NCBI RefSeq assembly: GCF_001293685.1 | Contig: NZ_BCAG01000003.1 | Span: 310,001 to 374,000 of the forward strand | Direction of reading: 5' to 3' | DNA length: 64,000 nucleotides | Source of the DNA: Desulfatitalea tepidiphila | Lineage (GTDB): Bacteria; Desulfobacterota; Desulfobacteria; Desulfobacterales; Desulfosarcinaceae | Shown here: piece by piece, positions 5,855-21,133 of the stretch | Layout: every line of letters starts with the position of its first letter | How positions within the stretch are numbered: the stretch's first letter is position 1 | The notes under the pieces: generated by a model | Seen by the model: only the letters and a program-made list of their open reading frames with translations | Databases searched by the model: none | What the model was told of the DNA's origin: nothing | Translations under genes and position numbers: made by a program

Positions 5855-6724
5855 TTACAATCGGATCTGGTACTTCTTGACGAAATCCACCGGGTTGTAG
5901 GAGAGTTTGGCTTTGCGCAACCCCTCGTCTCCGATGTCCTGTTCCCGGTTGACGATGGTGGGGCCTTTGGGAAGTTTGGTCAGAAAGATTTGATTGATGG
6001 CCTGGTAGCTGCCTTTGTAGTCGGGGCATCCCTTTTCGAAATGAATCACCAGGCTGTTGTCGGGCATGATCTCCGCGATGGTGTACGCGGCGATGATGCC
6101 CTTTACGATCAGGGCGCCGCCGGTAATCGCCTGCAAGTGCTGCGCGGTGTCGAGCACGCGCGCGATGGCTTGGTTCTCCGAAGCCAGGGTTTCGACGTCT
6201 TCGCAATCGCGCCAGGCACACCAATCTTCCTGCATGGCCATGGCATGGTCGATCATGTCCGGTCCAAACGGCAGGTAGGTGTATTCATAGCTTTTGAGGA
6301 ACTGGTTGAGCAGGTTTTTCTTCTTGTGAAAGCGGTTGCCCTTCAGTTCGATCAGCTCTTCGATGCTGTATAGATAGTCCCAGTGTTCGCGGGTCTCTTC
6401 GGCCGTAATGGAGAGTGCATCGTTGCGTCGGAGGATATCTATCAACCCGTCGGGAATTCGGATGATCCGATCGGCGTCGGCTTTGGCCGCGGCCAGGGCC
6501 GCCGGCCAGTCGGTTTGTTGCCAGTCGCCTACCGGCGCCCACAGGGCGGGTTGGGGATCTTGTTGCCGTATCCATACCAGGTCGTCCTGCCAGGCCCATT
6601 GGAGGCCGTATTCCTCGCCCCATCCCCATAGATTGATAAAGCTGTAATCGGATGCGATCTGGCCGCACCGGGAGAGGTGCTTGAGATAGTCATCCTGGCG
6701 TTCGAGTCGAATCGGTTCGAATTG
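5855..6724 (-). CDS. DUF2156 protein (phosphatidylglycerol lysyltransferase C-terminal-like, GNAT fold)
   Basis: This protein of about 289 residues resembles the soluble DUF2156 family, whose fold matches the C-terminal tRNA-dependent aminoacyl-transferase domain of MprF: two tandem GNAT-like halves without the membrane flippase part. Typical features are SDYSFINLWGW near the N terminus, ELKGNRFHKKKNLLNQF in the middle, and NREQDIGDEGLRKAKLSYNP near the C terminus. The start is uncertain: ATG 6724 has a somewhat distant AAGGG site, and ATG 6754 adds ten residues. It overlaps the end of the glycerate kinase gene and is co-directional with it. The acceptor substrate is unknown. Confidence 0.8.
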   Translation of the reverse strand, partial: QFEPIRLERQDDYLKHLSRCGQIASDYSFINLWGWGEEYGLQWAWQDDLVWIRQQDPQPALWAPVGDWQQTDWPAALAAAKADADRIIRIPDGLIDILRRNDALSITAEETREHWDYLYSIEELIELKGNRFHKKKNLLNQFLKSYEYTYLPFGPDMIDHAMAMQEDWCAWRDCEDVETLASENQAIARVLDTAQHLQAITGGALIVKGIIAAYTIAEIMPDNSLVIHFEKGCPDYKGSYQAINQIFLTKLPKGPTIVNREQDIGDEGLRKAKLSYNPVDFVKKYQIRL

Positions 6725-8126
6725 CATGCGGGTGGTGGTTCCCTTCCGCGCCATCTTCAAAGATGGGCTGTTTTTCTGTTGTCATCACCAGAACGATATT
6801 CAAATCCATGACATTAGTACCCGTGGGGCCGGTGATCAGCAGGTCCCCCAGCGCTTCGAAGAACGGGTAGGCATCATTATGAGACAGATGGCGGCGGATG
6901 TCCAGCCCTGCACCGGCGGCGCGGGCCGCGGTGGTGTGGTCGACGAAGGCGCCGGCGGCATCGGTGGGGCCGTCGGTGCCGTCGGTGCCAGCCGCGAGGA
7001 TGAGGACCGACGGATGATCGGCGATGGAAAGGGCCGTATTCAGGGCGAACTCCTGGTTGCGGCCGCCGCGTCCGTCGCCTTTGAGGACCAGGGTGGTTTC
7101 GCCCCCAGACAGAATGCAGGCCGGCGGTGGCAAGGGGTTGCCCGAGGCTAGAATTTCCCGGGCCATAGCGGCGTGAAGGCGCGCCACGGTGCGGGTGTCG
7201 CCTTCGATGCAGGACGAGAGCACCATCGTATGGTAGCCCCGCTGCTCGGCGGCCCGTGCCGCGGCCTCAAGGGCCTGGCGGTTGCTGCCCACCATGAGAT
7301 GCGCGGTATGCCGCCAGTCGTGGGTGTCGGTCTTTGGTGTCTCGGCCACTCTTCCGGCGACACCGTCTCTGATGCGTTGTCGAACGACGGCCGGCAGTTG
7401 CGATTCGATGCCGTAACGGCCAATGATGTCCAGACAGTCGCCGAAGGTGCTGCGGTCCGGCACGGTGGGGCCCGAGGCGATGACATCCGGGTCGTCGCCG
7501 ACCACATCGGATAAAATGAGCGTCACGCACGGCGCCGGCGCCGCGGCCTGGGCCAGCTGGCCGCCCTTGATGCCGGAAAGATGCTTGCGGATGGCGTTCA
7601 TTTCGTGAATCGTCGCGCCGCAGGAGAGCAGCAGATCGGTGGTCGTTTGTTTTTCCGCCAGATGGAGGCCGTCGGCCGGCAGCGGCATCAGGGCCGATCC
7701 ACCGCCGGAGAGCAGCACGATGACCAGGTCCCTCGGTCCGGCTTGGCGCGCCAGGTCGAGGATGGCGCGGGAGGCCGCGACGCCGTTGGCGTCGGGCAGG
7801 GGGTGACCCGCTTCGACGGTGCGGATGCGGGCCAATGGTGCGGTGTGCCCATATTTAACACTGATGATGCCGTCTTCGATGCGGTCGCCGACGATCTCTT
7901 CAATAGCCCGGGCCATGAAGGCCGTGGCTTTACCGGCACCGACGACCCATATCCGGTCGATGGCCGAGAGGTCGAACCGGCGTTTGCCGATGCACAGTTC
8001 CCGTCCCGTTCGACGGCAGAGACGCCGGATGGCGGCCGCCGGGTCGGCGGCGCTCAGGCCGCTTCGGAATATCGCTTCGGCATCGGCGCGCATGCGGGCC
8101 AGGATGGGGTCGGACGTCGCGCTCAT
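6690..8126 (-). CDS. Glycerate 2-kinase (GckA/TtuD-type, MOFRL)
   Basis: This 478-residue enzyme is predicted to phosphorylate D-glycerate to 2-phosphoglycerate with ATP, feeding lower glycolysis. The N-terminal DUF4147 domain carries VVGAGKATAFMARAIEE and the nucleotide-binding LLSGGGSALMP. The C-terminal MOFRL domain carries ILSGGETTLVLKGDGRGGRNQE and AAGTDGTDGPTDAAGA. I start it at ATG 8126, which has a GGGGAG site and lies 4 bp after the stop of the sigma-54 activator, so expression is probably coupled. A longer reading into the activator gene would add a low-complexity extension in the wrong frame and is not credible. The 3' end overlaps the DUF2156 gene. Confidence 0.9.
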   Translation of the reverse strand: MSATSDPILARMRADAEAIFRSGLSAADPAAAIRRLCRRTGRELCIGKRRFDLSAIDRIWVVGAGKATAFMARAIEEIVGDRIEDGIISVKYGHTAPLARIRTVEAGHPLPDANGVAASRAILDLARQAGPRDLVIVLLSGGGSALMPLPADGLHLAEKQTTTDLLLSCGATIHEMNAIRKHLSGIKGGQLAQAAAPAPCVTLILSDVVGDDPDVIASGPTVPDRSTFGDCLDIIGRYGIESQLPAVVRQRIRDGVAGRVAETPKTDTHDWRHTAHLMVGSNRQALEAAARAAEQRGYHTMVLSSCIEGDTRTVARLHAAMAREILASGNPLPPPACILSGGETTLVLKGDGRGGRNQEFALNTALSIADHPSVLILAAGTDGTDGPTDAAGAFVDHTTAARAAGAGLDIRRHLSHNDAYPFFEALGDLLITGPTGTNVMDLNIVLVMTTEKQPIFEDGAEGNHHPHAIRTDSTRTPG

Positions 8127-8130
8127 GGCA

Positions 8131-9555
8131 TCATCGCTCCCCGGCCGCCCTGGGTCTTGGCTCCCCGGCGTCGGCGGCGATGGTCTTTTTATATTGCACC
8201 CCGTAGCGCCGCATGCGGTTCCAGACGGTGACCCGGGTGACACCCAGCAGCTCGGCGGCACGGGACTGGTTGCCCTCGGCCTCTTCCAGGGCTTCGATGA
8301 GTTCGAGGCGCTTGAGCGCCTCCCGGTCGAAGCCCTTGCGTCCGGCGGCGGCGGATTTGGGGGCATGATGGAAGATATTGGGCGGTAGATGGTTCGGGCT
8401 GATCATCGTCTCCTGGCACGTGACGAAGGCGTATTCGAAGGCGCTTTTCAACTCCCGGACATTACCGGGCCAGGGATAGGCCATCAGGCAGGCCATGGCG
8501 TCATTGCTGATGCCGCTGATCGGTTTGCGGTTTTTCAGGCCGACTTTGTGAAAGAAGGCTTCGGCCAGCAAAGGAATGTCTTCGGTGCGTTCGCGCAGCG
8601 GCGGCAGATGAATGGGGATCACATTGATCCGGAAAAAGAGGTCTTCCCGAAATCTTCCCTGGGCGATCAGCTCTTGCAGGTTGCGGTTGGTGGCCGAAAT
8701 GATGCGCACATCCACCGGAATCGGGGTGTTGTCGCCGACCCGCTCGATGATTTTCTCTTCCAGCACCCGAAGCAGTTTGACCTGGATGGCCAGGGGCAGG
8801 TCGCCGATCTCGTCGAGGAAGATGTTGCCCCCGTCGGCGAGTTCGAAACGACCCGCGCGATTGCGGTAGGCGCCGGTGTAGGCGCCCTTGACGTGACCGA
8901 AAAGCTCGCTTTCCAGCAGCGATTCGGTAAAGGCGGCACAGTTGACCTTGACGAACGGTCGGTCGCAACGTGCGCCGAGCTGATGGATGGCGCGGGCGGC
9001 CAGCTCCTTGCCGGTGCCGCTCTCGCCCAATATGATCACCGGTGCGTCCGAATGGGCGGCGTTTGAGATCAGTTCGAAGACTTGCTGCATGGGCGGGCTG
9101 GCGCCGAGAATGCCGCAAAGGCCGTCGTCGGAACGCAGCTGGCGCTCGTACGCGGCGATCTTGTTCTCCTTTTCGATCAGTTCGCTGATGTCGGTGATGG
9201 TTTCCACCGCTCCGATCACGGCACCGCCGTCGTCGTGGAGAAGGCAGGCGTTTTTCAGCGCATGCACGGGCCGGCCGTCTTTGCGCTTGATCACACACTG
9301 GCGAGCATTGACGGTTTTTCCGCTGAACAGCGAACACCATTGATTGCCGTCATTGTGGCGGATCTGTTCGCACACATCGCATTCCAGGCGGGTGCAGTTC
9401 CGGCCGATCAGCTCGTCTCTACTGTAGCCGGTGATGCGCTCCAGGGCGGTGTTGACCGAAACGATGATGCCGCGTTCGTCAACGATCATCAATCCATCGC
9501 GGATGGTATTGACGACGGTTTTCCAATAGCGGTCGATTTCGTGTTCGCTCATCAC
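8131..9555 (-). CDS. PAS-domain sigma-54-dependent transcriptional activator
   Basis: This 474-residue enhancer-binding protein has a PAS sensor (about 10-125), an AAA+ domain (about 145-385) and a Fis-type helix-turn-helix (about 415-455). Walker A is GESGTGKE at 177-184. The sigma-54 contact loop reads GAYTGA (224-229) where GAFTGA is usual; Tyr at that position occurs naturally. The PAS region has an unusual cysteine set (Cys54, 60, 62, 74, 87 and 104), which suggests a metal, Fe-S or redox-sensing site (inference). It is divergent from the sigma-54 promoter at 9720-9735 and is the obvious candidate activator for it. The glycerate kinase gene follows 4 bp downstream. Confidence 0.93.
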   Translation of the reverse strand: MMSEHEIDRYWKTVVNTIRDGLMIVDERGIIVSVNTALERITGYSRDELIGRNCTRLECDVCEQIRHNDGNQWCSLFSGKTVNARQCVIKRKDGRPVHALKNACLLHDDGGAVIGAVETITDISELIEKENKIAAYERQLRSDDGLCGILGASPPMQQVFELISNAAHSDAPVIILGESGTGKELAARAIHQLGARCDRPFVKVNCAAFTESLLESELFGHVKGAYTGAYRNRAGRFELADGGNIFLDEIGDLPLAIQVKLLRVLEEKIIERVGDNTPIPVDVRIISATNRNLQELIAQGRFREDLFFRINVIPIHLPPLRERTEDIPLLAEAFFHKVGLKNRKPISGISNDAMACLMAYPWPGNVRELKSAFEYAFVTCQETMISPNHLPPNIFHHAPKSAAAGRKGFDREALKRLELIEALEEAEGNQSRAAELLGVTRVTVWNRMRRYGVQYKKTIAADAGEPRPRAAGER

Positions 9556-9562
9556 GCATGCC

Positions 9563-9577
9563 TGTTAAAATTTAACA
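9563..9577. promoter_or_regulatory. Inverted repeat TGTTAAAATTTAACA, candidate activator-binding site
   Basis: Two perfect 7-bp arms (TGTTAAA and TTTAACA) flank one base, 8 bp from the activator start. Related half-sites recur at 9603-9610 (TTTTAACA) and 9653-9660 (GTTTAACC). These positions are about 85-180 bp upstream of the sigma-54 start site expected near 9745, the usual distance for enhancer sites. The site may also serve autorepression. Confidence 0.55.
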
Positions 9578-9602
9578 CCTGTCAAAAACGAATTCTTTAT
9601 CA

Positions 9603-9610
9603 TTTTAACA
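9603..9610 (+). promoter_or_regulatory. Second TTTAACA half-site
   Basis: TTTTAACA repeats one arm of the 9563-9577 palindrome in the activator/TusA-like intergenic region. A third, weaker copy (GTTTAACC) lies at 9653-9660. Confidence 0.35.
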
Positions 9611-9719
9611 TGCCATGGGCAATGCTCCTGTACGGGGTTCGGTCGTGATGAAGTTTAACCTTATGAATCCAAGAGGAAAACCCATTTCCAGGACAAGGTC
9701 CTGACCAGTGCCTGTTGGA

Positions 9720-9735
9720 TGGCATGGGGTTTGCC
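9720..9735 (+). promoter_or_regulatory. Sigma-54 (-24/-12) promoter
   Basis: TGGCAT, five bases, then TTGC matches the sigma-54 consensus TGGCAC-N5-TTGC with one mismatch. GG (9721-9722) and GC (9733-9734) are exactly 10 bases apart, the invariant spacing. Transcription would start near 9745, about 40 bp before the TusA-like gene. The adjacent divergent sigma-54 activator and the upstream repeats support it as real. Confidence 0.7.
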
Positions 9736-9785
9736 TATTAATTGCCCCCTGTGTCTGTGGTTTTTTTTTATGGAGCAGTGTACAG

Positions 9786-10025
9786 TTGCTTGAAAATCAT
9801 GTAGATTACAGCCTCGATTTTCGAGGCGCCATCGCCCCCCTGGCCATGCTCAAATTGAGTCGTGTCTTCAGGGAAATGCGCCCGAATCAGACGCTTGAAG
9901 TGCTAGGGCTGGACGCGGATACGCGCTCCGATCTGTTCCGATTGCTTCCGAAGGTTTCCTACGACCTTATCGCCATGGACGAGAGCGAAGCGGCGCTGAT
10001 TCGCGTTTGTTTGCGTAAGCGGTGA
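9786..10025 (+). CDS. TusA-like protein lacking the catalytic cysteine
   Basis: The 79-residue product read from TTG 9786 (GGAG site at 9772-9775) fits the length and pattern of TusA/SirA/YedF proteins. It has an N-terminal LDFRG strand, then the first helix and an EVLGLDADTRSDL segment. The hallmark CPxP motif after LDLRG is replaced by IAPLA, so the sulfur-carrying cysteine is missing. Such variants probably act as binding or regulatory proteins rather than sulfur carriers (inference). An upstream ATG in the same frame would add a hydrophobic leader that spans the sigma-54 promoter, so I prefer the TTG. It is the first gene after the sigma-54 promoter. Confidence 0.65.
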   Translation: MLENHVDYSLDFRGAIAPLAMLKLSRVFREMRPNQTLEVLGLDADTRSDLFRLLPKVSYDLIAMDESEAALIRVCLRKR

Positions 10026-10083: not shown

Positions 10084-10110
10084 CCATTTGCCGGCCGTCG
10101 GGGCAAATGG
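10084..10110 (+). promoter_or_regulatory. Perfect hairpin in the metF-1 leader
   Basis: CCATTTGCC (10084-10092) and GGCAAATGG (10102-10110) can form a 9-bp stem with a 9-base loop. It lies 38 bp before the metF-1 start and has no T tract behind it. It is more likely a processing, stability or attenuation structure between the TusA-like gene and metF-1 than a terminator. Confidence 0.4.
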
Positions 10111-10147: not shown

Positions 10148-11020
10148 ATGAGTTTTCAAAAACGATTAGCATCTGGCGAATTTGTGGTTTTGGCTGAGAT
10201 GAATACGCCCAAAGGGGTGGATATATCTCAGCTCATCACCAACGCTCGTAAAGTCAAGGGGCGGGTGGATGCGGTGAGCGTTCCGGACATGGATAACGGC
10301 GTCATGCGGATGAGCGCCCTGGCAGGGGGTGTTCTGATGCAGCAGCAGGGGATCGAGGCCATTATCCATACCTATGGCCGGGATCGTAATCGTATGGCCC
10401 TTCAAGGCGACCTGCTGGCCGCCCATGTCCTGGGGATCCAGAACCTGATCGTGGCCCACAGCGAGGCCATGGGAAACGGCGACCACCGGGATGCCAAAAC
10501 AGTGGACGATCTCGACGAGATCGGTCTTCTGAAGGCGATCCAGGGCCTGCAACAGGGCAAGGACCTGGCCGGGTTCGATCTGGAAGGTGCACCGAGTTTC
10601 ACCACGGGTTGCACCATTGCCTCGTTCGGCGACGCTGTGGCCCTGAATGCGGTACTGGCCGATGCCAAGGCCAAGGTCGAGGCCGGCGCCCAATTCATCG
10701 TAACCCCGCCGGTGTTCGACGTGGCGCGTTGCGAGGCGCTCCTGGACAAGCTCAAGGGGTTGGGGGTACCGGTCATTGCGACCATCTTCCTGCTCAAATC
10801 GGTCGGTATCGCCCGATATATCGCCCTGAACGAGCCCAACGCGGGTGTTACCGAAGCCCTTATCGGCCGTATCCGCAAGGCATCGGACCGCGAGCAGGAG
10901 TGCCTGCGGATTGCCGGTGAAACCATCGTCGCGCTCAAGGGCAAGGTGGCCGGTGTGAAGATCGAGACCCTTGGATGGGAGCACCGCCTGGGGGCCATTC
11001 TCGATTACGCCCAGATATAG
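10148..11020 (+). CDS. Methylene-tetrahydrofolate reductase family protein (MetF-1)
   Basis: This 290-residue TIM-barrel protein belongs to the MetF family, which reduces 5,10-methylene-THF to 5-methyl-THF with a flavin. Visible family features are the N-terminal FVVLAEMNTPKG strand with the conserved Glu, the YGRDRNR motif (FAD/folate region), FDLEGAPSFTTG, and AGAQFIVTPPVFD at the barrel's later strands. It starts at ATG 10148 after AAAGGGGAG. It is a paralogue of the enzyme at 15350, with which it shares RDRNRxAxQxD. The window therefore has one MetF on each side of hdrA-mvhD-metV. Its exact role next to MetF-2 is not clear; it may replace or supplement it. Confidence 0.85.
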   Translation: MSFQKRLASGEFVVLAEMNTPKGVDISQLITNARKVKGRVDAVSVPDMDNGVMRMSALAGGVLMQQQGIEAIIHTYGRDRNRMALQGDLLAAHVLGIQNLIVAHSEAMGNGDHRDAKTVDDLDEIGLLKAIQGLQQGKDLAGFDLEGAPSFTTGCTIASFGDAVALNAVLADAKAKVEAGAQFIVTPPVFDVARCEALLDKLKGLGVPVIATIFLLKSVGIARYIALNEPNAGVTEALIGRIRKASDREQECLRIAGETIVALKGKVAGVKIETLGWEHRLGAILDYAQI

Positions 11021-11174: not shown

Positions 11175-14100
11175 ATGACAGACCACACTGCAGAGCACAA
11201 CAAACCGATTCTCGTCATAGGCGGCGGCGTCGGCGGCATCAAGGTGGCTATGGACCTGTCGGAAGCACAGAAAGATGTGTTGCTCATCGACAAGGCTCCT
11301 GCCATCGGCGGCTTGATGACCCAGCTGGACCGCACCTTTCCAACCAACAATTGCGATTTGTGTACCATCTCGCCGAGGCTCTCTTCCGGCGCCCGGGAAA
11401 AGCACATCGGCTTGATGCCGCTGACCCAGGTGACCAGCCTGGAGGGCGAGGCCGGCGACTTCACGGTCAAGCTGGTCAGCGCACCGCGCTACATCGACCT
11501 GGAAAAATGCACGGCATGCGGGGAGTGCCACAAAAAATATCCCGAGTGCGTGCGTTTCGTTCCGGGCCTGGATCATCGTGCGCCGACCTGTATGCGCTAT
11601 CCGCAGGCCACGCCCCAGGCGTTTTCCATTGACATGGCGGCGTGCCTGGATGTGGACGGCCTGATCAAGTGCTGCCCGGCCAACGCCATCATTCCCGACG
11701 ACAAGGAGAAAACGGAAACCCGTAAGGTCAGCGCCATCGTGCTGGCCACCGGTGCCGATCTGTTCGATCCGGGCAAGCTGGACCATTTCGGCCACGGCCG
11801 CTACCCCAATGTGGTGACCGGCCTGGAGTACGAACGCATCATGTCGGCCTCCGGTCCCACCCTGGGCGAACTGGTGCGTCCGTCGGACCGTCAACAGCCC
11901 AAACGGGTGGCCTGGATTCAGTGCGCCGGATCGCGCGGTATCAATCGCGAGGATGTCTCCTACTGCTCGAGCGTCTGCTGCATGTACGCGCTCAAGGAGG
12001 CCATTGTCACCAAAGAGCGTTTTCAGAACGATATCGAGACCACGATTTTCTACATGGATATGCGCACCTTCGGCAAGGATTACGAGGGCTACTACGAACG
12101 GGCCAAGGATCAGTACGGCATCCGCCTGGTGCGCTGTCGTCCGCACAGTATCATTCCCGAAAAGGACAGCGACGACCTGCGGATCTCCTATGCCACCGAT
12201 CACGAGTCGGGCATGATCACGGAAAATTTCGATATGGTCGTTCTTTCCACCGGCTTCCGGCCATCGGCCCAGACGACGCAACTGGCCGAAACCCTGGGCA
12301 TCGAACTCAATCCGCACCGGTTTGCCAAGACCGGGAGTTTTCAGCCGGTCAGCACCAATCGGCCGGGCGTCTACGTCTGCGGGGTGTTTGAAAGCCCCAA
12401 GGATATTCCCGAAACCATGGTCCAGGCCAGTGCGGCCGCGTGCATGGCGGCCAAACATCTGCCCATCAAGACCAACGAGATGCCTGCGGCCGAAGATATC
12501 TATCCGCCCGAACGGGATGTGACCGGCGAAGCGCCGCGCATCGGCGTTTTCGTCTGTGACTGCGGCGAGAATATCGGCGGGGCCATCGATGTGGCCTCAG
12601 TGGTCGAAGAAGCGGGGAAGTATCCCCATGTGGTGTACGCCGAGATGGCCGGGCACGGTTGCGGCAGCGAGGCGCTGGCCCGCATGCAGAGCGTCATCAA
12701 AGAAAAAGGCCTCAATCGGGTGGTGGTCGGTGCCTGTTCGCCGCGCACCCACGAGGCGCTTTTCCAGGAGACGATCCGAAAGGCCGGATTGAACCGATAC
12801 CTCGTGGAGATCGCCAACATCCGCGATCAAAACGCCTGGGTGCACAGCAATGCCAGGGAGCTGGCCACGGCCAAGGCCAAACAGTTGATTCGCATGGCCG
12901 CTTTCAGTGTGGCCAAGTCCGGACCGCTGAGAGATCATCAGCTGCCCATGAACAAGAATGTGCTGGTGGTCGGCGGCGGCGTGGCCGGTATGAATGCGGC
13001 CCTGGAACTCGCCAACCAGGGCTTCAAGGTGGTGTTGGCCGAGCGCAACGGCCGCCTCGGCGGTCTGGCTTCGGTCGTTCGGCGAACCCTCGAAGGGGAC
13101 GATGTCAGGGCTTATCTCAACCAGCTGGTGGACCAGGTGAACCATCATGAAGGCATCGAGGTGATCACCAACGCCATCGTGGTCGACCATGCCGGCATGC
13201 CCGGCAAGTTTACCACCGGTTTCCAGATCGGCCCCCGGATGTACTACCGCCAGATCGAACACGGTGCCACCATCATGGCCACCGGCGCCATGGCCAACCG
13301 GCCCGGTCAATACCTCCTCGACCAGCACAAGGCGGTGATGACCCAGCTCGACCTGGACGACTTCATCGAGGAGACCCCGGCGCCTATCGCCGATTGGGAA
13401 AGCGTGGTGATGATCCAGTGCGTGGGGTCCCGCACACCGGAGAATCCCAACTGTTCGCGCATCTGCTGCCAGACGGCCATCAAGAACGCCTTGCGGCTGC
13501 TGGATCTCAATCCCCAGCTGCAGATCTTCGTGCTCTACCGCGACATGCGGACCTACGGATTCAGCGAAGACGCGTATATCGAAGCCCGGCGGCGGGGTGT
13601 CATTTTTGTCCGTTATCAACATGACGCACCACCCGAGGTCGAGGCGGCCGGTGACAAGGTGGCGGTGCGGTTTATCGACTCGGTGCTCCAGCGGCCGGTG
13701 GAGGTGACCTGCAATCGCCTGGTGCTGAGCACCGGCCTGGTGGCCGATGAAGAAAGCACCGAAGACCTGGCGGCCATCTTTCACCTCAACAGGACGGAAG
13801 ACGGCTATTTCCTCGAAGATCATGTCAAGCTCAAACCGGTGGATATGTCGGTGCCGGGATTCTTCGTGGCCGGCTGTGCCCATTCACCGCGCAGCATTCG
13901 CGAGAGCATTGCCCAGGCCCAGGCCACGGCCGCCCGCGTGCAGGCCATGCTGGCCCAGGATACGATCAACCTGGGTGCCGTGGTGGCCCGCGTCGATCCG
14001 GAAAAATGTGCTACCTGCCTGGCCTGCGTGCGCGCCTGCCCCTACCATGTCCCGTTTATCAACGAAGACCGTTATTCGGAAATCGATCCGGCCAAGTGTC

Positions 14101-14213
14101 ACGGGTGCGGTATCTGCGCGGCCGAATGCCCGGCCAAGGCGATTCAGCTGGCGTGTTTCGAAGACGAACCGATTATGGCCAAACTCGAAGGATTGCTCGA
14201 AAGGATAGCCTGA
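11175..14213 (+). CDS. hdrA: HdrA-like FAD/iron-sulfur electron-transfer protein, double-length
   Basis: This 1012-residue protein is related to heterodisulfide reductase subunit A, the flavin subunit used for electron bifurcation. It has two tandem HdrA-type nucleotide-binding halves. One starts with ILVIGGGVGGIKVAMDL near residue 12, the other with VLVVGGGVAGMNAALELA near 595. Each half carries its own cysteine set: NNCDLCTISPR and CAGSRG...SSVCC in the first, CVGSRTPENPNCSRICC in the second. The C-terminal 70 residues hold two [4Fe-4S] ferredoxin motifs (CATCLACVRACP and CHGCGICAAECP). Extra Fe-S sites include CTACGECHKKYPEC. The start at ATG 11175 precedes the Rossmann motif by the usual length. 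The stop overlaps the mvhD start (TGATG). Confidence 0.93.
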   Translation: MTDHTAEHNKPILVIGGGVGGIKVAMDLSEAQKDVLLIDKAPAIGGLMTQLDRTFPTNNCDLCTISPRLSSGAREKHIGLMPLTQVTSLEGEAGDFTVKLVSAPRYIDLEKCTACGECHKKYPECVRFVPGLDHRAPTCMRYPQATPQAFSIDMAACLDVDGLIKCCPANAIIPDDKEKTETRKVSAIVLATGADLFDPGKLDHFGHGRYPNVVTGLEYERIMSASGPTLGELVRPSDRQQPKRVAWIQCAGSRGINREDVSYCSSVCCMYALKEAIVTKERFQNDIETTIFYMDMRTFGKDYEGYYERAKDQYGIRLVRCRPHSIIPEKDSDDLRISYATDHESGMITENFDMVVLSTGFRPSAQTTQLAETLGIELNPHRFAKTGSFQPVSTNRPGVYVCGVFESPKDIPETMVQASAAACMAAKHLPIKTNEMPAAEDIYPPERDVTGEAPRIGVFVCDCGENIGGAIDVASVVEEAGKYPHVVYAEMAGHGCGSEALARMQSVIKEKGLNRVVVGACSPRTHEALFQETIRKAGLNRYLVEIANIRDQNAWVHSNARELATAKAKQLIRMAAFSVAKSGPLRDHQLPMNKNVLVVGGGVAGMNAALELANQGFKVVLAERNGRLGGLASVVRRTLEGDDVRAYLNQLVDQVNHHEGIEVITNAIVVDHAGMPGKFTTGFQIGPRMYYRQIEHGATIMATGAMANRPGQYLLDQHKAVMTQLDLDDFIEETPAPIADWESVVMIQCVGSRTPENPNCSRICCQTAIKNALRLLDLNPQLQIFVLYRDMRTYGFSEDAYIEARRRGVIFVRYQHDAPPEVEAAGDKVAVRFIDSVLQRPVEVTCNRLVLSTGLVADEESTEDLAAIFHLNRTEDGYFLEDHVKLKPVDMSVPGFFVAGCAHSPRSIRESIAQAQATAARVQAMLAQDTINLGAVVARVDPEKCATCLACVRACPYHVPFINEDRYSEIDPAKCHGCGICAAECPAKAIQLACFEDEPIMAKLEGLLERIA

Positions 14214-14659
14214 TGGAAACATTTGAACCTGTCATTGTGGCCTTCTGCTGCCACTATTGCGCATACACCGCCGCAGACATGGCCGGGACCATGCGCTTGA
14301 ATTACCCGACCAACGTGAAAATCGTGCGGGTGCCCTGCAGCGGTAAGGTGGACACCATTCACATGATGAAAGCGCTGGAAAAGGGGGCCGACGGTGTTCT
14401 GGTCGCCGGCTGCCTGGACGGCGACTGCCATTTTAAAAATGGCAACACCAAGGCGACCAAGCGCGTCGCTTTCGTTCAAAAGCTGCTCGAAGAGATCGGC
14501 ATCGAACCCCAGCGCCTGGCCATGGTGACCATGTCGGCCGGCATGGGGCCCCGTTTTGCCAAGATTGCCACTGAATTCACCGAAGAAATTCGAAAATTGG
14601 GACCCAACCCGGTCGGTGCCGCAAAGCAGGCACAAGCCGCCGCGGACAAGGTCGCATAG
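14213..14659 (+). CDS. mvhD: MvhD-type iron-sulfur electron carrier
   Basis: This 148-residue protein matches the delta subunit of methyl-viologen-reducing hydrogenase, which hands electrons to HdrA. It carries the [2Fe-2S]-type cysteines FCCHYCAYTAAD near the N terminus, PCSGKVD in the middle and AGCLDGDCHFKNGN. Its ATG overlaps the hdrA stop by one base, so translation is coupled. With no hydrogenase genes nearby, it most likely links HdrA to MetV/MetF, as in the acetogen MetVF-Hdr-MvhD complexes. The C-terminal alanine-rich tail is probably flexible. Confidence 0.93.
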   Translation: METFEPVIVAFCCHYCAYTAADMAGTMRLNYPTNVKIVRVPCSGKVDTIHMMKALEKGADGVLVAGCLDGDCHFKNGNTKATKRVAFVQKLLEEIGIEPQRLAMVTMSAGMGPRFAKIATEFTEEIRKLGPNPVGAAKQAQAAADKVA

Positions 14660-14684: not shown

Positions 14685-15353
14685 ATGATTACAGCGGAAC
14701 GAAAACCCTTGGCGGAAATCATCGACAGCATCGACGACTGCCGACGAATTCTTCTGGTTGGGTGCAACGAGTGTGTGACGGTCTGTTCGGCCGGCGGTCG
14801 CAAAGAGGTGGCCATGTTGGCCTCGGCGCTGCAGATGGATTTCATGAAACGCGGCAAGACCCTGGATGTTCGTGAAATGACCCTGGAGCGTCAGTGCGAT
14901 CCCGAGTACGTAGAGCAGTTGGCGCCGTATATCGGCCAGGTCGATGCGGTGGTTTCCATGGCCTGCGGTTGCGGCGTGCAGGAAGTGGCCAAGCGCTTTC
15001 GCGACAAGCGCGTCTTTCCGGCGGTCAACACCAAATTCATGGGCGCCTCGGAAGGCCCGGGAATCTGGGCGGAACGGTGTCATGGCTGCGGCAACTGCCT
15101 GCTGGGCCTGACCGGCGGCATCTGCCCTATTGCGCGCTGTTCCAAACGCCTGCTCAATGGCCCCTGCGGCGGTTCCAGTCATGGCAAGTGCGAAGTCAGT
15201 GACGAGATCGATTGCGTATGGCAGCTGATCTGGGATCGGCTCAAGGAACTGGGCCAGGAGGATCGATACGAAGAAATTATAGAGGCAAAGGACTGGAGTA
15301 CGGAACGGGCCGGCGGGCCTCGCAAGATCGTAAGAGAGGATTTGGCACAATGA
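14685..15353 (+). CDS. metV: MetV, zinc/iron-sulfur partner of methylene-THF reductase
   Basis: This 222-residue protein has the MetV pattern: NECVTVC (about 26-32), ACGCGVQ, and a cysteine-rich C-terminal part, CHGCGNCLLGLTGGICPIARC followed by LLNGPCGG. In acetogens and sulfate reducers with the Wood-Ljungdahl pathway, MetV docks to MetF and connects it to an electron carrier. The ATG follows AAAGGAGAG. The stop overlaps the MetF-2 start (ATGA), the tightest coupling in the cluster, so MetF-2 rather than MetF-1 is its natural partner. Confidence 0.93.
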   Translation: MITAERKPLAEIIDSIDDCRRILLVGCNECVTVCSAGGRKEVAMLASALQMDFMKRGKTLDVREMTLERQCDPEYVEQLAPYIGQVDAVVSMACGCGVQEVAKRFRDKRVFPAVNTKFMGASEGPGIWAERCHGCGNCLLGLTGGICPIARCSKRLLNGPCGGSSHGKCEVSDEIDCVWQLIWDRLKELGQEDRYEEIIEAKDWSTERAGGPRKIVREDLAQ

Positions 15354-16273
15354 TGACAGAAAGTGTATTAGAAAAGGTAATGAAAGCCGGCCATATTGCT
15401 GTTACGGGCGAATGCGGCCCCCCGCGGGGCGCAATGCCGGAAAAGGTCAAGGAGAAGGCCGAATTGCTTCGCGGTTACGTGGATGCCGTCAACATTACGG
15501 ACAACCAGACCGCAATGGTGCGCATGTCGAGTTTCGCTGCCAGCATGATCCTGAAGCAAATCGATATGAACCCCGTTTTGCAGATGGTGTGCCGGGACCG
15601 CAACCGGTTGGCCATGCAGGCCGATATCATCGGTGCTTACAGCCACGGCATCAACACCATGTTGTGTCTGTCCGGCGACCACATGAAGTTCGGCGATCAT
15701 CCCATGGCATCGGGTGTGTTTGATCTGGATTCCATCCAGATGATTCAGATGGTGCGCAAGATGCGCGATGAGGGCAAATTTTTCGGAGGGGCCGAGATCA
15801 AGGGCGCGCCCAAGATGTTTATCGGTGCTGCGGCCAACCCGTTTGCCGATCCATTCGAGCTGCGCGTGGCCCGACTGGCCAAGAAAGTGCGGGCCGGTGC
15901 CGATTTTATTCAGACCCAGTGCATTTTCAATGTTGACAAGTTCGAGCAATGGATGAAAGGTGTGCGCGAGCGGGGTCTGCACAAAGAGACCTATATCATG
16001 GCTGGTATCACCCCGATGAAATCCGTTGGCGCGGCCAGGTATATGAGAAACAAGGTACCCGGGATGGATGTCCCCTCTGAACTGGTCGATCGCATGGCCA
16101 AGACGCCCAAAGAGAAGCAGGCCCAGGAAGGCATCGACATCTGCGTCGAGACCATTAAGCGGGTCCTGGACATCGAAGGGGTGGCCGGAGTTCACATTAT
16201 GGCCATCGAATGGGAATCTGCGGTGCCCGAAATCGTCGAACGCTCTGGACTCTATCCGAGGCCGCAGGTATAG
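15350..16273 (+). CDS. metF: Methylene-tetrahydrofolate reductase, MetV-coupled (MetF-2)
   Basis: This 307-residue MetF-family enzyme is predicted to make 5-methyl-THF in the methyl branch of the Wood-Ljungdahl pathway, or run in reverse during complete oxidation of acetyl-CoA. It shows HIAVTGECGPPRG (conserved Glu), CRDRNRLAMQADI, FGGAEIKGAP and AGADFIQTQCIFN. It is read from ATG 15350, which overlaps the metV stop. The linked HdrA and MvhD genes suggest the electrons come from a bifurcating or ferredoxin-linked module rather than directly from NADH. This is the last gene of the core C1 block. Confidence 0.93.
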   Translation: MMTESVLEKVMKAGHIAVTGECGPPRGAMPEKVKEKAELLRGYVDAVNITDNQTAMVRMSSFAASMILKQIDMNPVLQMVCRDRNRLAMQADIIGAYSHGINTMLCLSGDHMKFGDHPMASGVFDLDSIQMIQMVRKMRDEGKFFGGAEIKGAPKMFIGAAANPFADPFELRVARLAKKVRAGADFIQTQCIFNVDKFEQWMKGVRERGLHKETYIMAGITPMKSVGAARYMRNKVPGMDVPSELVDRMAKTPKEKQAQEGIDICVETIKRVLDIEGVAGVHIMAIEWESAVPEIVERSGLYPRPQV

Positions 16274-16348: not shown

Positions 16349-16732
16349 ATGAGTAGCAAACAATTGGTACTGGTCGTCGACGATGACCCGGATCTGGTGG
16401 AATCGGTCAGCATGAAACTGGAAAGCCGAGGCTACCGTGTGGCCAAAGCCTATGATGGCGTGGAAGCCTGGGACAAGATCAAAGCTGAGCGGCCGGCCCT
16501 GGTGATTCTGGACGTCATGATGCCCCGTAAGAACGGGTACGTGCTGTGCAACGAAATCAAAAACGATCCCGACTATAAGGACATCGTGGTGGTTCTGCTG
16601 ACGGCCGTGGCCGATGCGGTGCCCAACACCAGCTACACCCACATGGACGGGAAGAACACTTTGGCCGATGATTTTATTCCCAAGCCGATCGATCTGGATA
16701 AATTGATGGAGATCGTCGCGGATAATCTCTAA
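16349..16732 (+). CDS. Stand-alone CheY-like response regulator
   Basis: This 127-residue receiver-only protein starts at ATG 16349 after AAGGAGG. It has the acidic pair in VVDDDPDL, phospho-acceptor Asp55 in VILDVMMPRKNG, the conserved Thr in LLTAVAD and the Lys in FIPKPIDLDKL. A small insertion around YTHMDGKNTLAD is seen in many PleD/CheY-like receivers of sulfate reducers. There is no output domain. It sits between metF-2 and two ACT-like proteins and a kinase, so it is probably a phospho-relay partner of that kinase (inference). Confidence 0.9.
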   Translation: MSSKQLVLVVDDDPDLVESVSMKLESRGYRVAKAYDGVEAWDKIKAERPALVILDVMMPRKNGYVLCNEIKNDPDYKDIVVVLLTAVADAVPNTSYTHMDGKNTLADDFIPKPIDLDKLMEIVADNL

Positions 16733-16807
16733 CGGCTATTGTATCCGGTCAGGTCTTGTCTCCTCCGTACGACGATTAGACGGTTCGGCCGGCCACGGAT
16801 TTGTTTT

Positions 16808-16840
16808 CGCCGGCAGTCCTTCACTTCGGGGCTGCCGGCG
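16808..16840 (+). promoter_or_regulatory. GC-rich hairpin between receiver and ACT genes
   Basis: CGCCGGCAG (16808-16816) and CTGCCGGCG (16832-16840) form a perfect 9-bp stem with a 15-base loop. No T run follows on the plus strand, so it is not a clear intrinsic terminator. It may reduce read-through or stabilise the upstream mRNA. Confidence 0.35.
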
Positions 16841-16957
16841 AGACAGACCGTGCGCCCGAAATTTGCCGGCCTGGTCGTCCGCACAGAGGGGCATCCGAAT
16901 GGGCCTCCGGCACCGTCTCTTGCCGACTATCGGCCATGATAGGGGTTGGTCTTCGAT

Positions 16958-17476
16958 ATGACCGAAAAGCTTTCCATCAATGGCCTCAAGCTCAGCGAAC
17001 CCCTGGCCCTGATCCAGGTTCATGCGCCTCATGCGACCGTTGGTCTCTTGTCTCCTTTCTGCCGCCTGCTGGCCCAACACCATGTCAACATCGCGTTCAT
17101 CACAACGACCGCTGCCATCGATTCGCAGCCGGTGGTATGCTGCATCGATGCCAAGGATCAATCGGTCGTCGAAGCCTTGACCGAGCAACACGAACGGCTC
17201 AGGGGATACGTCCATTTCTGCGGACGTGTCGGTGTCGTCACCTTCTATCCACACCATGCCAACCTCAAGTTCATGGGATTGGCCCTGCAAGTGTTCAGCC
17301 GAAACGGCATCAAGGTCCACGCTCTGGCCTCCTCGATCTCGGCTCTCAGCTTCGTGGTCGATTTCGATCGGCTGGAAGAAGCCGGCCGGCTGCTCGTCGA
17401 AGGTTTTCAATTACCTGAAAATGCCTCGCCGTTAAGGACGGATTTCAAAGTCCGTCAGGAAAGGCGGCCCGTATGA
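16958..17476 (+). CDS. ACT-like domain protein
   Basis: The product of about 172 residues appears to contain two ACT-type units. The first has LLAQHHVNIAFITTTAAID (about 40-60). The second has VGVVTFYPHH and ALQVFSRNGIKVHALASSISALSFVVDF (about 95-135), which reads like the regulatory domain of aspartate kinase. ACT domains bind amino acids or other small ligands. No kinase catalytic part is present. The start could be TTG 16946 or ATG 16958; I use the ATG, preceded by AGGGG. It lies directly before a second ACT-like gene and a PAS kinase, so it may be the sensory input to that kinase (inference). Confidence 0.75.
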   Translation: MTEKLSINGLKLSEPLALIQVHAPHATVGLLSPFCRLLAQHHVNIAFITTTAAIDSQPVVCCIDAKDQSVVEALTEQHERLRGYVHFCGRVGVVTFYPHHANLKFMGLALQVFSRNGIKVHALASSISALSFVVDFDRLEEAGRLLVEGFQLPENASPLRTDFKVRQERRPV

Positions 17477-17563
17477 TCCGGCCGGATCGCCATGCGGGGA
17501 GAGATCGGCCGGCCAGGTCGCCGATCCGGGTGCCTACAGCAGCCCGGGGAGGGATGGGAAACG

Positions 17564-18076
17564 ATGGAAACCATTGCCGTTTATTGGGAATCTAGAATTC
17601 GGACCTACGGATTTCATCTGTGCGAGGCGCTGCGGCTCTGCCGGATCGATATTGCACCGGAAAAGATGGCGCAGTGGGGGCAGGCCCTTCAATCCATGGC
17701 CGATCAGGGGCCGGTCTTCCAGATGGTTTGGGCCCAAGGCGGCCAGGGGGGCACGACCCGGTTTTTCCTGTTGAGCGATGAGATCCATTGGGGTAGGTTG
17801 AGTCCCTTTTTGGATCGTCAACTGGCAGTGGGCAACGCGTTGGTCATGGGGGACCCGATCCGTGTGGATCTGCTGTTTCTCCAGGGGCCGCACTACGGCG
17901 ATCGATATGGCGTGCTGGATTTTACCCTGACGCCACTGTTCGAGGCGCAAATCCCCATTCTGGCCGTCGCCTGCTCGGTGGCCACGATTTATCTGGTTCT
18001 GCCGACCGGTTGGGGCGGGCAGGCCAAAGCGCTGCTCACGGACGCATTCGAGATTCCTCGTCATGTGCGTATCTGA
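17564..18076 (+). CDS. Second ACT-like protein of the signalling block
   Basis: This 170-residue protein starts at ATG 17564 after GGGAGGGATGGGA. The N terminus (TIAVYWESRIRTYGF) and the C-terminal core (LDFTLTPLFEAQIPILAVACSVATIYLVLP) fit an ACT-like beta-alpha-beta arrangement, and the final strand resembles aspartokinase regulatory halves. It has no signal peptide or catalytic motif. It follows another ACT-like gene and precedes the PAS kinase with a 57-bp gap. Assignment to the ACT superfamily is moderate; the ligand is unknown. Confidence 0.6.
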   Translation: METIAVYWESRIRTYGFHLCEALRLCRIDIAPEKMAQWGQALQSMADQGPVFQMVWAQGGQGGTTRFFLLSDEIHWGRLSPFLDRQLAVGNALVMGDPIRVDLLFLQGPHYGDRYGVLDFTLTPLFEAQIPILAVACSVATIYLVLPTGWGGQAKALLTDAFEIPRHVRI

Positions 18077-18133
18077 CGCATGGCGACGCCGTTGGCGTCA
18101 TGGGTTCGATCCAGAGGAGTTGGAGACCGGACG

Positions 18134-19627
18134 ATGAATCAGAAACTGATGAATGAGCTCGACTGGCGCTTGCGGGTGTTCGATTCCCTCTCCTTTCCCA
18201 CCCTCATTCTAAAGCCGGACAAGACCATCTTATCGGCCAACCAGATCTTTTTGCAGCGCCACGGCCTCACCCTGGATCAAATTGTGGGCAGGCATTGCCA
18301 TGAGGTGTTTTACAACGCGCACACATGCCCGAACAAGGTATGCCCTTTTCAAAAAGTATTGACCGAGAAAAACGGTACCACCGTTATGCGGCGGCATACC
18401 ACCCGGACCGGTAAACGGCTCTATGAGGACCGGGTCTTTTCGCCTATTCTGGACGAAAATGGCGAGGTCGCCTATATCATGGAGAGCGTCCGTGATGTCA
18501 CCCGTCAGAAGAATCTGGAGCTGGCCCTGAAAGAGACCGAGGCCTTTCTCGAAAAGGTGATTCTCGGTTCTCCCATCGCCATCGTCGCCGCCGACCGCTA
18601 CGGTCATATCCTGCTCATGAACCCGGCCGCCGAAGAGCTGTTCGGGTATAGCAATCCTTTTGCCGTGCGCCATGTTACCGCGGATCAGCTCTATCCCCCC
18701 GGCACGGCCAGCCAGATCATGCGTTTTCTGGAAGATGCCCAAGGCAAATTGCCGAGCATCAAAACCACGATACGCAATGCCCAGGGGGAAAATATCCCCG
18801 TGGATCTGACGGCTTCGATCATCTACGAAGACGGTGAGGCGGTGGCTACCGTGGGCATCTATACCGATCTGCGCGAGAAGCTGGCCGTGGAGAAACAGCT
18901 CAAGGAGGCCCAGGCCCAGTTGGCCCAGTCCGAGAAGATGGCCTCGCTGGGGCAGCTCGCCGCCGGGGTGGCCCACGAGATCAACAACCCGCTGACCGGT
19001 ATCCTGTTTTACGCGACCCTTCGGTTGGAAGGCATGGACCACGACGACCCCGAGCGGGCCGATGTGCAGGCGGTGATCGACGATGTGAAGCGCTGCCGCG
19101 ACATCGTGCAGAATCTTCTGGCCTACAGCCGGCAATCGAGTCCCATGAAAGATATGATCCAGCTCAATACGCTCGTCGACCAGAGCATCAATCTGATCCG
19201 GGACCCGAAGTTGTTTCGCAATATCGAGATCGAACGTATCTTTTCAGATGAGATGATGATGTTGCATGTGGATAAAAACCAGATCAGCCAGGTGATCATC
19301 AACCTGGTGATCAATGCCGTGCACGCCATGCACGGCGACGGCAAGTTGACCTTGAGTACCTATCGGAACAAATTCGAAGGAAAGGCTTTTCTTGAAATCT
19401 CCGATACCGGATGCGGCATTGCCGCCCAGGACTTGCCGAAAATATTCGATCCGTTTTATACGACCAAGGCCCCCGGCGAAGGCACCGGCCTGGGCTTGAG
19501 CACGGCCTATGGGCTGCTCAAGGAGAACAGGGGAGAGATTCGTGTAAAAGAGACCGGCAGTTCGGGGACGACCTTTATCATTGAATTCGAGCTCTATTCG
19601 AGTGCCCAGGACCAAGATTTGGATTAA
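18134..19627 (+). CDS. PAS-PAS sensor histidine kinase, cytosolic
   Basis: This 497-residue kinase has no membrane segment. PAS1 (about 12-130) carries a cysteine-bearing insert (HCHEVFYNAHTCPNKVCPF), and PAS2 is at about 145-255. HisKA follows with His281 in GVAHEINNPLTGIL, then an HATPase domain with NLVINAVHAMHGDG, DTGCGIAAQDLPKIFDPF and GTGLGLSTAYGLL. It starts at ATG 18134. The cysteine-rich PAS recalls the one in the sigma-54 activator at 8131-9555, which suggests related redox or metal sensing (inference). Its gene is 12 bp before the receiver-kinase hybrid, so the two likely act together. Confidence 0.9.
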   Translation: MNQKLMNELDWRLRVFDSLSFPTLILKPDKTILSANQIFLQRHGLTLDQIVGRHCHEVFYNAHTCPNKVCPFQKVLTEKNGTTVMRRHTTRTGKRLYEDRVFSPILDENGEVAYIMESVRDVTRQKNLELALKETEAFLEKVILGSPIAIVAADRYGHILLMNPAAEELFGYSNPFAVRHVTADQLYPPGTASQIMRFLEDAQGKLPSIKTTIRNAQGENIPVDLTASIIYEDGEAVATVGIYTDLREKLAVEKQLKEAQAQLAQSEKMASLGQLAAGVAHEINNPLTGILFYATLRLEGMDHDDPERADVQAVIDDVKRCRDIVQNLLAYSRQSSPMKDMIQLNTLVDQSINLIRDPKLFRNIEIERIFSDEMMMLHVDKNQISQVIINLVINAVHAMHGDGKLTLSTYRNKFEGKAFLEISDTGCGIAAQDLPKIFDPFYTTKAPGEGTGLGLSTAYGLLKENRGEIRVKETGSSGTTFIIEFELYSSAQDQDLD

Positions 19628-19639
19628 AGGAAAGATGCT

Positions 19640-21133
19640 GTGACCGATACCCACCAACAACCGCAGCCGGGCAATGCCTGTGTAGATGGTTTCCAGAAGA
19701 CGAGTGTGCTGATTGTCGATGACGAGGAGCGGATTCGCCACGTTTGCACCCAGATGCTGACCAAAGAGGGATACGATGTGGCCCAGGCGGCAAACGCCGA
19801 CATCGGGCTGGAGATGGTCGCCCAGCGCCATTTTGATATCATATTGCTGGACCTGCTCATGCCGGGCATTTCCGGGCTGGAGGCCCTGGAACAGATTCGG
19901 GAGATGCACCCGGATACCGTGGTGATCGTTATCACCGGCTACGCCACCCTGGATCACGCCGTCAACGCCATGAAGAACGGTGCGTTCGACTTCGTTTCCA
20001 AACCTTTCTCCCCCCAGGACTTGCGCATAGTGGTCTCCAAGGCCATCGAGCACATCCGTACGTTGCAGGATATCACCAACGAAAAGTCGCGGGTCCGCAC
20101 CATGATCAACCATCTGGCTGGCGGCGTCATGGCCACCGATAACTGCAAGGTGGTGGCGCTGGCCAACCATGCCTTCCTCAACTTCGTCGATCACCGCGGT
20201 GAAACCCCCATCGGAAGGCCGGTCACCGACCTGGTCAAAGATCAAAAAATTCTTGCCATGATCGATCAGGCCCTGGCCATGCCGGGAGACCAGTTTGCCG
20301 AATTGAACGATGAAATCACGGTTGCATCTGGAGCTGATGGCGAGGAGCGCATCATCGAGGTTCGCTGTGTGCCGTTTCGGGACCGTCTGGACCGCAACCT
20401 GGGCACCATTACCGTCATGCACGATGTGACGGCCCTGAAGCGCATGGATCAGATGAAATCGGAATTCGTCGCCATGGTCAGCCATGAGATCCGGGGGCCG
20501 CTCAACTCCGTCCTCATGCAGCACAAGGTCATTCTGGACGAACTCGCCGGCGAGATCACCGAAAAGCAACGCGAGATTTTGACCCGCGCCTATGACAAGA
20601 TCAGCGCGCTGGTGGAATTGTCCACCGAGCTGCTCGATCTGGCCAAGATGGAGTCCGGGCTGATCGCAGTGGATAAAGAGAGGCTGCAGTTAGCGTCGAT
20701 ATTGGAAGATCAGCTGGCTTTTCATCTGCCCAAGGCACAATCCAAATCGATCGCTCTGGAGTTGATCCCGTTGCCTGAACTGCCGCCGGTCCTGGCCAAT
20801 CGCAGGAACATGGAAGAGGTGTTGTCCAACCTGATCACCAACGCCATCAACTATACCCCCGAAGGCGGCCGCGTGGCCATCGGTGCGGAAATCGACGGGC
20901 TCTTCGTCTGCATGAAAGTCAGCGACACTGGTTATGGGATTCCAAAAGAGGAGCTGGATCAAATCTTCAAACGCTTCTACCGGGTCAAAACTGAAAAGAC
21001 CCGTCTCGTAATCGGCACTGGCCTGGGGCTGCCCATCGTGAAAAAAATCGTGGAAACGCACAATGGCCATATTCAGGTGCAAAGCGAAGAGGGCCAAGGA
21101 AGTACTTTTACTGTTTGCATCCCGGCGGCCTGA
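19640..21133 (+). CDS. Receiver-PAS-histidine kinase hybrid
   Basis: The 497-residue product is read from GTG 19640 with an AAAGGAAAG site. An N-terminal receiver (about 14-130) has Asp71 in ILLDLLMPGISG, then a PAS-like segment (about 155-265). HisKA follows with His282 in AMVSHEIRGPLN, and HATPase has NLITNAINYTPEGG, DTGYGIPKEELDQIF and GTGLGLPIVKKIVETH. This order (receiver first) suits an enzyme that accepts phosphate from another kinase, such as the one encoded 12 bp upstream. It closes the signalling block that follows the C1 genes. The output target is not in the window. Confidence 0.9.
   Translation: MTDTHQQPQPGNACVDGFQKTSVLIVDDEERIRHVCTQMLTKEGYDVAQAANADIGLEMVAQRHFDIILLDLLMPGISGLEALEQIREMHPDTVVIVITGYATLDHAVNAMKNGAFDFVSKPFSPQDLRIVVSKAIEHIRTLQDITNEKSRVRTMINHLAGGVMATDNCKVVALANHAFLNFVDHRGETPIGRPVTDLVKDQKILAMIDQALAMPGDQFAELNDEITVASGADGEERIIEVRCVPFRDRLDRNLGTITVMHDVTALKRMDQMKSEFVAMVSHEIRGPLNSVLMQHKVILDELAGEITEKQREILTRAYDKISALVELSTELLDLAKMESGLIAVDKERLQLASILEDQLAFHLPKAQSKSIALELIPLPELPPVLANRRNMEEVLSNLITNAINYTPEGGRVAIGAEIDGLFVCMKVSDTGYGIPKEELDQIFKRFYRVKTEKTRLVIGTGLGLPIVKKIVETHNGHIQVQSEEGQGSTFTVCIPAA

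Follow-up and report, generated by a model that had tools for sequence, protein, structure and literature searches.

How do complete-oxidising sulfate reducers switch the methylene-tetrahydrofolate (methylene-THF) reductase step of the Wood–Ljungdahl pathway? No description of such switching was found in the literature searched. The question is raised by a locus in a stretch of 64,000 nucleotides (nt), here called the window, of the 5.6-Mb genome of Desulfatitalea tepidiphila (G000), where the gene of a sigma-54 activator, or enhancer-binding protein (EBP), faces away from a row of metF, hdrA, mvhD and metV genes. A first-pass annotation had claimed that a sigma-54 promoter and this activator control the methylene-THF reductase/HdrA module. 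Our comparative analyses support that claim through the conservation of the predicted promoter and of a nearby palindrome, and through the placement of EBPs labelled as metF-associated on one side of a branch in the EBP tree. The sequence comparisons are best explained by a sigma-54 circuit dedicated to the metF/hdrA operon. Very probably, a dedicated one-component activator drives the divergent TusL-metF1-hdrA-mvhD-metV-metF2 row, with sensing by a cysteine-bearing PAS domain (Cys-PAS) and with TusL acting on the activator; TusL is the name coined here for a TusA-fold protein without the CPxP cysteine. The genes of the row are those named in the first-pass annotation, except that its TusA-like product lacks the catalytic cysteine.

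8134–9552, minus strand: activator (EBP) gene; open reading frame (ORF) 8131–9555, with the ATG at 9552 the likelier start (Pfam, ortholog alignment A2)
9553–9785: intergenic stretch between the minus-strand activator and the plus-strand gene row
9563–9577, no strand: enhancer site 1, a putative upstream activating sequence, palindrome TGTTAAA-A-TTTAACA, TGTTAAAATTTAACA (sequence, conservation in family relatives)
9578–9610, no strand: putative enhancer site 2, CCTGTCAAA at 9578–9586 and TTTTAACA at 9603–9610 (conserved columns)
9720–9734, plus strand: predicted sigma-54 promoter, TGGCAT-N5-TTGC (sequence, conservation)
9772–9775, plus strand: GGAG ribosome-binding sequence ahead of the TTG start at 9786 (sequence)
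9786–10025, plus strand: TusL, Cys-less and TusA-fold, first gene of the proposed operon (PF01206, predicted fold, co-location with the EBP)
10148–11020, plus strand: metF-1, methylene-THF reductase (MTHFR) family
11175–14213, plus strand: hdrA; start uncertain, ORF from 11103
14240–14659, plus strand: mvhD, FlpD/MvhD family
14685–15353, plus strand: metV, PF12225, MTHFR C-terminal family
15359–16273, plus strand: metF-2, MTHFR family

The promoter, ATGGCATGGGGTTTGCC, carries its GG at 9721–9722 and its GC at 9733–9734, confirming the exact GG-N10-GC spacing first reported for it; the site, earlier placed at 9720–9735, is real, with a core that ends at 9734. Promoters were scored out of 13 against the sigma-54 consensus YTGGCACG-N4-TTGCW, and the window site reaches 10/13. 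Given that a site of at least 10/13 appeared in 2.8% of 500 dinucleotide shuffles of the window intergenic stretch, the promoter taken by itself is only moderately unusual. Across the whole genome, TGGCAY-N5-TTGC occurs 66 times, compared with 12 for a reversed control pattern. The adjacency of an activator alone is also weak evidence, because sigma-54 activator domains are common in this genome (66 PF00158 matches).

The strong evidence for the predicted promoter is its conservation in relatives. We compared 26 relatives with the same divergent pair, namely L040–L050 from the same family and 15 of 20 divergent-EBP loci, omitting the near-copy L039/L073 (100% in metF1) and the repeats L074, L075, L106 and L108. 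On the operon strand, a site of at least 9/13 is found in 24 of the 26 and one of at least 10/13 in 21, where shuffles would yield 2.5 and 0.7; on the opposite strand the corresponding numbers are 2 and 1. The distance from the activator start to the -24 GG, 168 nt in the window, is 154–168 nt in 17 of the 24 relatives with a site. What is found is thus a GG-N10-GC element in a TGGCAY-N5-TTGC context that is conserved in orthologous loci.

Conservation also marks the putative enhancer. In an alignment of the window with 10 family relatives (L040 was omitted for its insert of ~130 nt), where a column was called conserved if the same in at least 80% of rows, 22/31 columns are conserved at 9560–9590 and 12/18 at 9595–9612. 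Further on, the counts are 6/33 at 9613–9645, 2/15 at 9646–9660 and 3/56 at 9661–9716, and at the promoter 9/21, with L050 misaligned there. Two of the TTTAACA-type repeats noted earlier, at 9563–9577 and 9603–9610, are therefore real and conserved. The third, at 9653–9660, is present in the window but lies in the 9646–9660 segment with its two conserved columns, and was rejected as part of the enhancer. Site 1 sits 10 nt upstream of the activator ATG. The check proposed in the first-pass annotation, for the -24/-12 element and the repeats in relatives with the same gene order, accordingly came out in its favour: the promoter persists as counted above, and the palindrome by the activator start is kept.

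The exact sequence TGTTNAANTTNAACA occurs at only two places in the genome, site 1 and a position inside an ORF (CarD-like by eye), and a wider regulon recognised through the palindrome was discarded on account of this coding copy. Thirteen places match the palindrome with one mismatch; the one checked (L071) is also coding. A site for integration host factor between enhancer and promoter was likewise unconvincing (7/27 spacers match with at most one mismatch, compared with 3.7 in mononucleotide shuffles).

The opposite-facing gene, first described as a sigma-54 activator at 9555–8131, does encode a protein with a PAS domain, an AAA+ Sigma54_activat domain (PF00158, E 3.6e-71) and a C-terminal Fis-type helix-turn-helix (HTH_8, PF02954, E 3.7e-12), the architecture of NtrC-type EBPs. 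Its GAFTGA-type loop reads GAYTGA; among 72 aligned EBPs, 70 carry GA[FY]TGA and the other two have S for A. We regard it as a one-component EBP because no receiver domain was reported. The window PAS domain has five cysteines (53, 58, 61, 73 and 86), and C53 is present in all 72 EBPs; all five are found in 56, four in 14 and two in 2. A predicted structure of the EBP (pLDDT 62.9) was too poor for placing the cysteines and was not used. The source genome holds three paralogs (A, B and C) with the same kind of PAS domain. Since paralog C is 61% identical to the window EBP over the full length, identity thresholds are inadequate for splitting orthologs from paralogs and were replaced by a tree. 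The paralogs stand before other genes, and the idea that Cys-PAS EBPs are specific to Hdr modules was rejected.

In the tree of the 72 EBPs, the 38 labelled metF need a single state change, compared with a shuffled mean of 24.2 (0/500 shuffles as low); with all labels, 15 changes are needed against a shuffled mean of 31.9. We also searched 13 genomes that have the metF cluster and no adjacent EBP, where the upstream stretch checked was 4.5 kb in ten and 2.7–3.1 kb in L085, L087 and L088. The best EBP genome-wide is at most 54% identical to that of the window, and one genome yielded nothing at E <= 1e-100. Of the 28 EBP matches from these genomes, 20 were set against the window genome's four Cys-PAS EBPs: 14 were closest to paralog A or B, including all those at 52–54%; one further match was nearest to A or B at 46–47%, and two were nearest to C. 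Because of the tree and this genome-wide comparison, we consider that the activator and the metF module have largely been passed on together within this clade, and that elsewhere the activator has been lost or was never there.

The first gene of the row encodes an unusual member of the TusA family. Window TusL matches PF01206 (E 3e-08), and its predicted model (pLDDT 89.8) has the order strand-helix-strand-helix-strand-strand, with Escherichia coli YhhP/TusA as the best PDB match (TM score 0.77, E 2.3e-4). The model thus gives TusL a predicted TusA fold, like that of the TusA/SirA sulfur carriers (YhhP/TusA; 1dcj, 3lvj). Unlike that family, TusL lacks the CPxP cysteine (DFRGAIAPLAMLK in the window versus the canonical DARGSACPGPLLE). 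There is no cysteine at this column in any of the 23 rows (of 24) of alignment A3 that reach it, nor in alignment A4; the L179 row is incomplete there, and the full L179 sequence is also without the cysteine. Sulfur transfer by TusL is therefore not expected. Ten first genes divergent to EBPs were tested, and every one matches PF01206 (E <= 0.009); in six cases the score passes the curated cut-off.

Elsewhere in this EBP family, too, the EBP faces away from a TusL gene, with different genes behind it. TusL is followed by canonical TusA, DsrE/MvhD-like and HdrA-like genes in L179, L181, L183, L188, L189 and L193 (partly by eye); by genes for a multihaem cytochrome and an iron-sulfur (FeS) protein in L178, L180 and L182 (by eye; the FeS gene was not seen in the L180 stretch); by a disulfide-reductase-like gene in L184 (by eye); and by a metallo-beta-lactamase (MBL)-rhodanese-like gene and a peroxiredoxin gene in L197 (by eye). 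When the source genome was searched with a profile of the 24 TusL sequences of A3, all picked beside EBPs, two TusL were found, both with a Cys-PAS EBP as divergent neighbour, and no other match exceeded 12.7 bits; the TusL of paralog A escaped this search and reached 15.5 bits in a local search.

In the class sample of 192 genomes, we crossed 105 TusL rows (E <= 1e-6) with 131 EBP rows (E <= 1e-155). A listed EBP stands divergent to TusL at no more than 1.03 kb in 48/58 cases at 60 bits or more, 10/20 at 45–60 bits and 6/27 at 30–45 bits. Seen from the EBPs, a TusL accompanies 20/20 at 640 bits or more, 19/31 at 600–640 and 13/22 at 560–600. Among genomes outside the profile-building set, 22/31 TusL are divergent to an EBP. 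Ten TusL of at least 60 bits are exceptions: L209 and L212 have a divergent EBP next to them that scores under the cut, L213 an EBP remnant, L214 a divergent EBP 3.2 kb off and L208 an EBP ~6.1 kb off; L211 and L215 lie at contig ends; and L210, L216 and L217 show no EBP in the stretch fetched. In a phylum sample of 395 genomes, 17 have TusL at E <= 1e-12. Seven of these lie outside the order of the window genome (one of them, L233, appears to be from the same genome as L076): in five a divergent EBP is next to TusL, in one an EBP is ~1.3 kb off, and in one TusL is at a contig start. At the fetched pairing loci, TusL stands beside 28/35 EBP rows, and in 27 of these 28 the interval between the two genes holds a -24/-12 site scoring 9/13 or more, a count given without a shuffle control. 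By these comparisons, the gene facing away from EBPs of the Cys-PAS family is usually TusL, also in front of other redox modules. Its association appears to be with the regulator and not with the Hdr module, suggesting that EBP and TusL are a regulator pair that can be reused for different redox gene modules.

Several observations weigh against a dedicated circuit of activator, TusL and metF module. At the promoter, the Desulfofustis loci L097 and L099, the two of the 26 relatives that fall short of 9/13, keep the EBP, TusL, the half-sites and TGGYCC, with the -12 GC replaced (TTTTGT, TTTTGA), and the Desulfobacula loci L107 and L109 have a -24/-12-like site, TGGCATGGTTTCTGC, ~85–101 nt before metF1 without an adjacent EBP or a TusL match. 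The EBP-TusL partnership is not obligatory, since 11/72 tree EBPs are labelled as without TusL and a listed TusL accompanies only 2/16 EBPs at 540–560 bits and 10/42 at 519–540 (12/58 at 519–560). In the source genome itself, paralogous EBPs have similar half-sites (L153 6802–11042, L154 11289–13139), and cross-regulation inside one cell is therefore possible; the paralog C locus, with TTAACA half-sites and a sigma-54 site, resembles that of the window. Paralog A has the weak TusL match and no sigma-54 site of 9/13.

The same applies to inheritance, for which many of the genomes compared are drafts. The metF1 clade occurs in 45 of the 192 genomes, and only 20 of these have the EBP on the same contig; the metF module thus also occurs without it. 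The EBP is adjacent in 19 of the 20 and ~11 kb off after an inversion in G166 (L195), and the 25 genomes without it come mostly from two families (12 and 7). In G164 (L213 3926–4290) the EBP is a remnant comprising residues 1–43 and 418–447, which points to a recent loss of the activator. The matches L167–L169 (40–43%), from genomes without an adjacent EBP, are marginally nearer to the window EBP than to its paralogs. In the tree, support for the metF branch is only 71, labelling L195 as metF raises the changes from one to two, and near-copy rows (e.g. L080/L199, L076/L233) flatter the shuffles.

Two of these loci also deserve description in their own right. In L213, the remnant adjoins an apparently intact TusL-metF1-hdrA row. 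In L195 (6807–19890), the metF genes have been turned round with respect to the EBP, and TusL, an ACT-like gene, an unknown ORF and both kinase genes keep a shared orientation as one group that faces away from the EBP.

In the dedicated circuit that we favour, the activator would bind the two TTAACA-type sites next to the start of its own gene and open the -24/-12 promoter, giving a transcription start at ~9746, 12 nt downstream of the -12 C. One transcript would reach metF2; no terminator-like site was found on the plus strand from 9500 to the hdrA start. The PAS domain, with four or five conserved cysteines, most likely senses the redox state or binds a metal or Fe-S ligand. TusL would be made from the same promoter, and its target is most likely the activator, through feedback or signal relay. 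PspF is a sigma-54 activator with a divergent operon, the first gene of which encodes its inhibitor, PspA. The present locus is similar in that the first operon gene divergent to an EBP is a candidate EBP partner, here judged from gene layout alone; unlike in the PspF-pspA system, the fold differs, that of PspA being unrelated to TusL.

Acting on the EBP is the likeliest role for TusL because it is the usual EBP companion whatever genes follow and because it would be made from the same predicted promoter. That it is a dedicated EBP partner, an anti-activator or a signal relay, in a cassette placed phylum-wide before several redox modules, including metF/Hdr, is a tentative proposal that we hold to be somewhat short of probable. 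The main rival would place TusL in the Hdr/metF electron-transfer machinery as a structural or docking subunit, its adjacency to the EBP reflecting only the first-gene place in regulated operons. In many loci TusL points the same way as an Hdr-type module, TusA proteins are known as partners of Hdr-like complexes (cf. PMC4175335), and in L208, L210 and L216, TusL without an adjacent EBP precedes hdrA-type or metF genes. However, TusL also stands ahead of the cytochrome/FeS, disulfide-reductase-like and MBL-rhodanese/peroxiredoxin genes mentioned above, with an EBP as its usual neighbour, and we consider the subunit role unlikely.

It is rather improbable that the TTAACA sites mainly autoregulate (repress) the activator gene, with only indirect activation of the operon. 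The sites do overlap the activator's own upstream region, site 1 lying immediately before its ATG, but their distance to the -24/-12 promoter of the divergent operon, itself conserved, is nearly fixed; such a range is normal for EBP action, and both roles can coexist. That the -24/-12 match arose by chance in a genome rich in sigma-54 activators is scarcely credible, despite the share of shuffles that reach its score and the many PF00158 matches, since 24/26 relatives have the site on the same strand and 17 of them at nearly the same distance.

The general layout, an EBP divergent from a sigma-54 operon, is already known in this phylum. The parts of PMC4641369 consulted describe divergent one-component EBPs of Desulfovibrio vulgaris with sigma-54 operons and predicted binding sites, including DVU3142-ohc (ohcBAC). 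As in the window, a one-component EBP is paired with an oppositely oriented sigma-54 operon that encodes an electron-transfer complex; the arrangement is kept in relatives and was predicted from similar evidence. The target differs, metF/hdrA here and Ohc there, and the two are likened by description. The main text of PMC4641369 contains no TusA, SirA, hdr or metF. Other papers report that Desulfobacteria are the richest in EBPs (PMC12316311), that Desulfobacteraceae have single-component (e.g. sigma-54-dependent) activators beside pathway genes (PMC11887813), and that Hdr/MvhD loci exist in Desulfobacterium autotrophicum (PMC2702500, in which the terms sigma54 and sigma-54 do not occur).

As for the module itself, MetF, MetV, HdrA and MvhD are encoded together in the window, as in the MetVF-HdrA-MvhD modules of acetogens and sulfate reducers (PMC9430772, PMC8515935); unlike those modules, the window has a second metF and no HdrB/C gene between the activator and metF-2. 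In the open-licence PubMed Central (PMC) literature, no description of this metF/hdrA sigma-54 circuit was found among the matches listed, judged by title and abstract start, and no paper on a TusA-like/sigma-54 activator pair was found by title (PMC3543383 included). The first-pass remark that no description of such a circuit had been seen thus holds for this target in the literature searched, and not for the layout in general. What is new is that the first operon gene encodes a TusA-fold protein without the CPxP cysteine and is the usual neighbour of a Cys-PAS EBP family. The dedicated circuit would offer a testable regulator with two putative binding sites, and TusL a candidate regulatory role for a TusA-fold protein unable to carry sulfur. 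If true, control of Hdr, Ohc-like and C1 modules would be tied to one kind of redox-responsive cassette.

Some features of the surroundings remain to be described. Between TusL and metF-1, the window has a perfect 9-bp inverted repeat with a 9-nt loop (10084–10110) and no T run after it. In the same interval of L079 (3112–4431) there is a gene for an HdrC/HdrB-like protein (LNTE-U-GH, CCGGGGGF), in which a single in-frame TGA is taken as selenocysteine; this selenoprotein candidate is absent between TusL and metF-1 in the window. L078, L086 and L098 have similar N-terminal ORFs with the same end point, in a TusL-metF1 gap of ~1.4 kb. Downstream of metF-2 (window 16352–21133) lie genes for a response regulator, an aspartate-kinase/ACT-like protein, an unknown ORF and two histidine kinases, in an order kept in L042–L044, L046, L049 and L050; the L047 stretch stops within the first kinase. 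Behind the activator, a glycerate-kinase-type gene (DUF4147/MOFRL; window 6690–8111) is kept in L040, L041 and L044.

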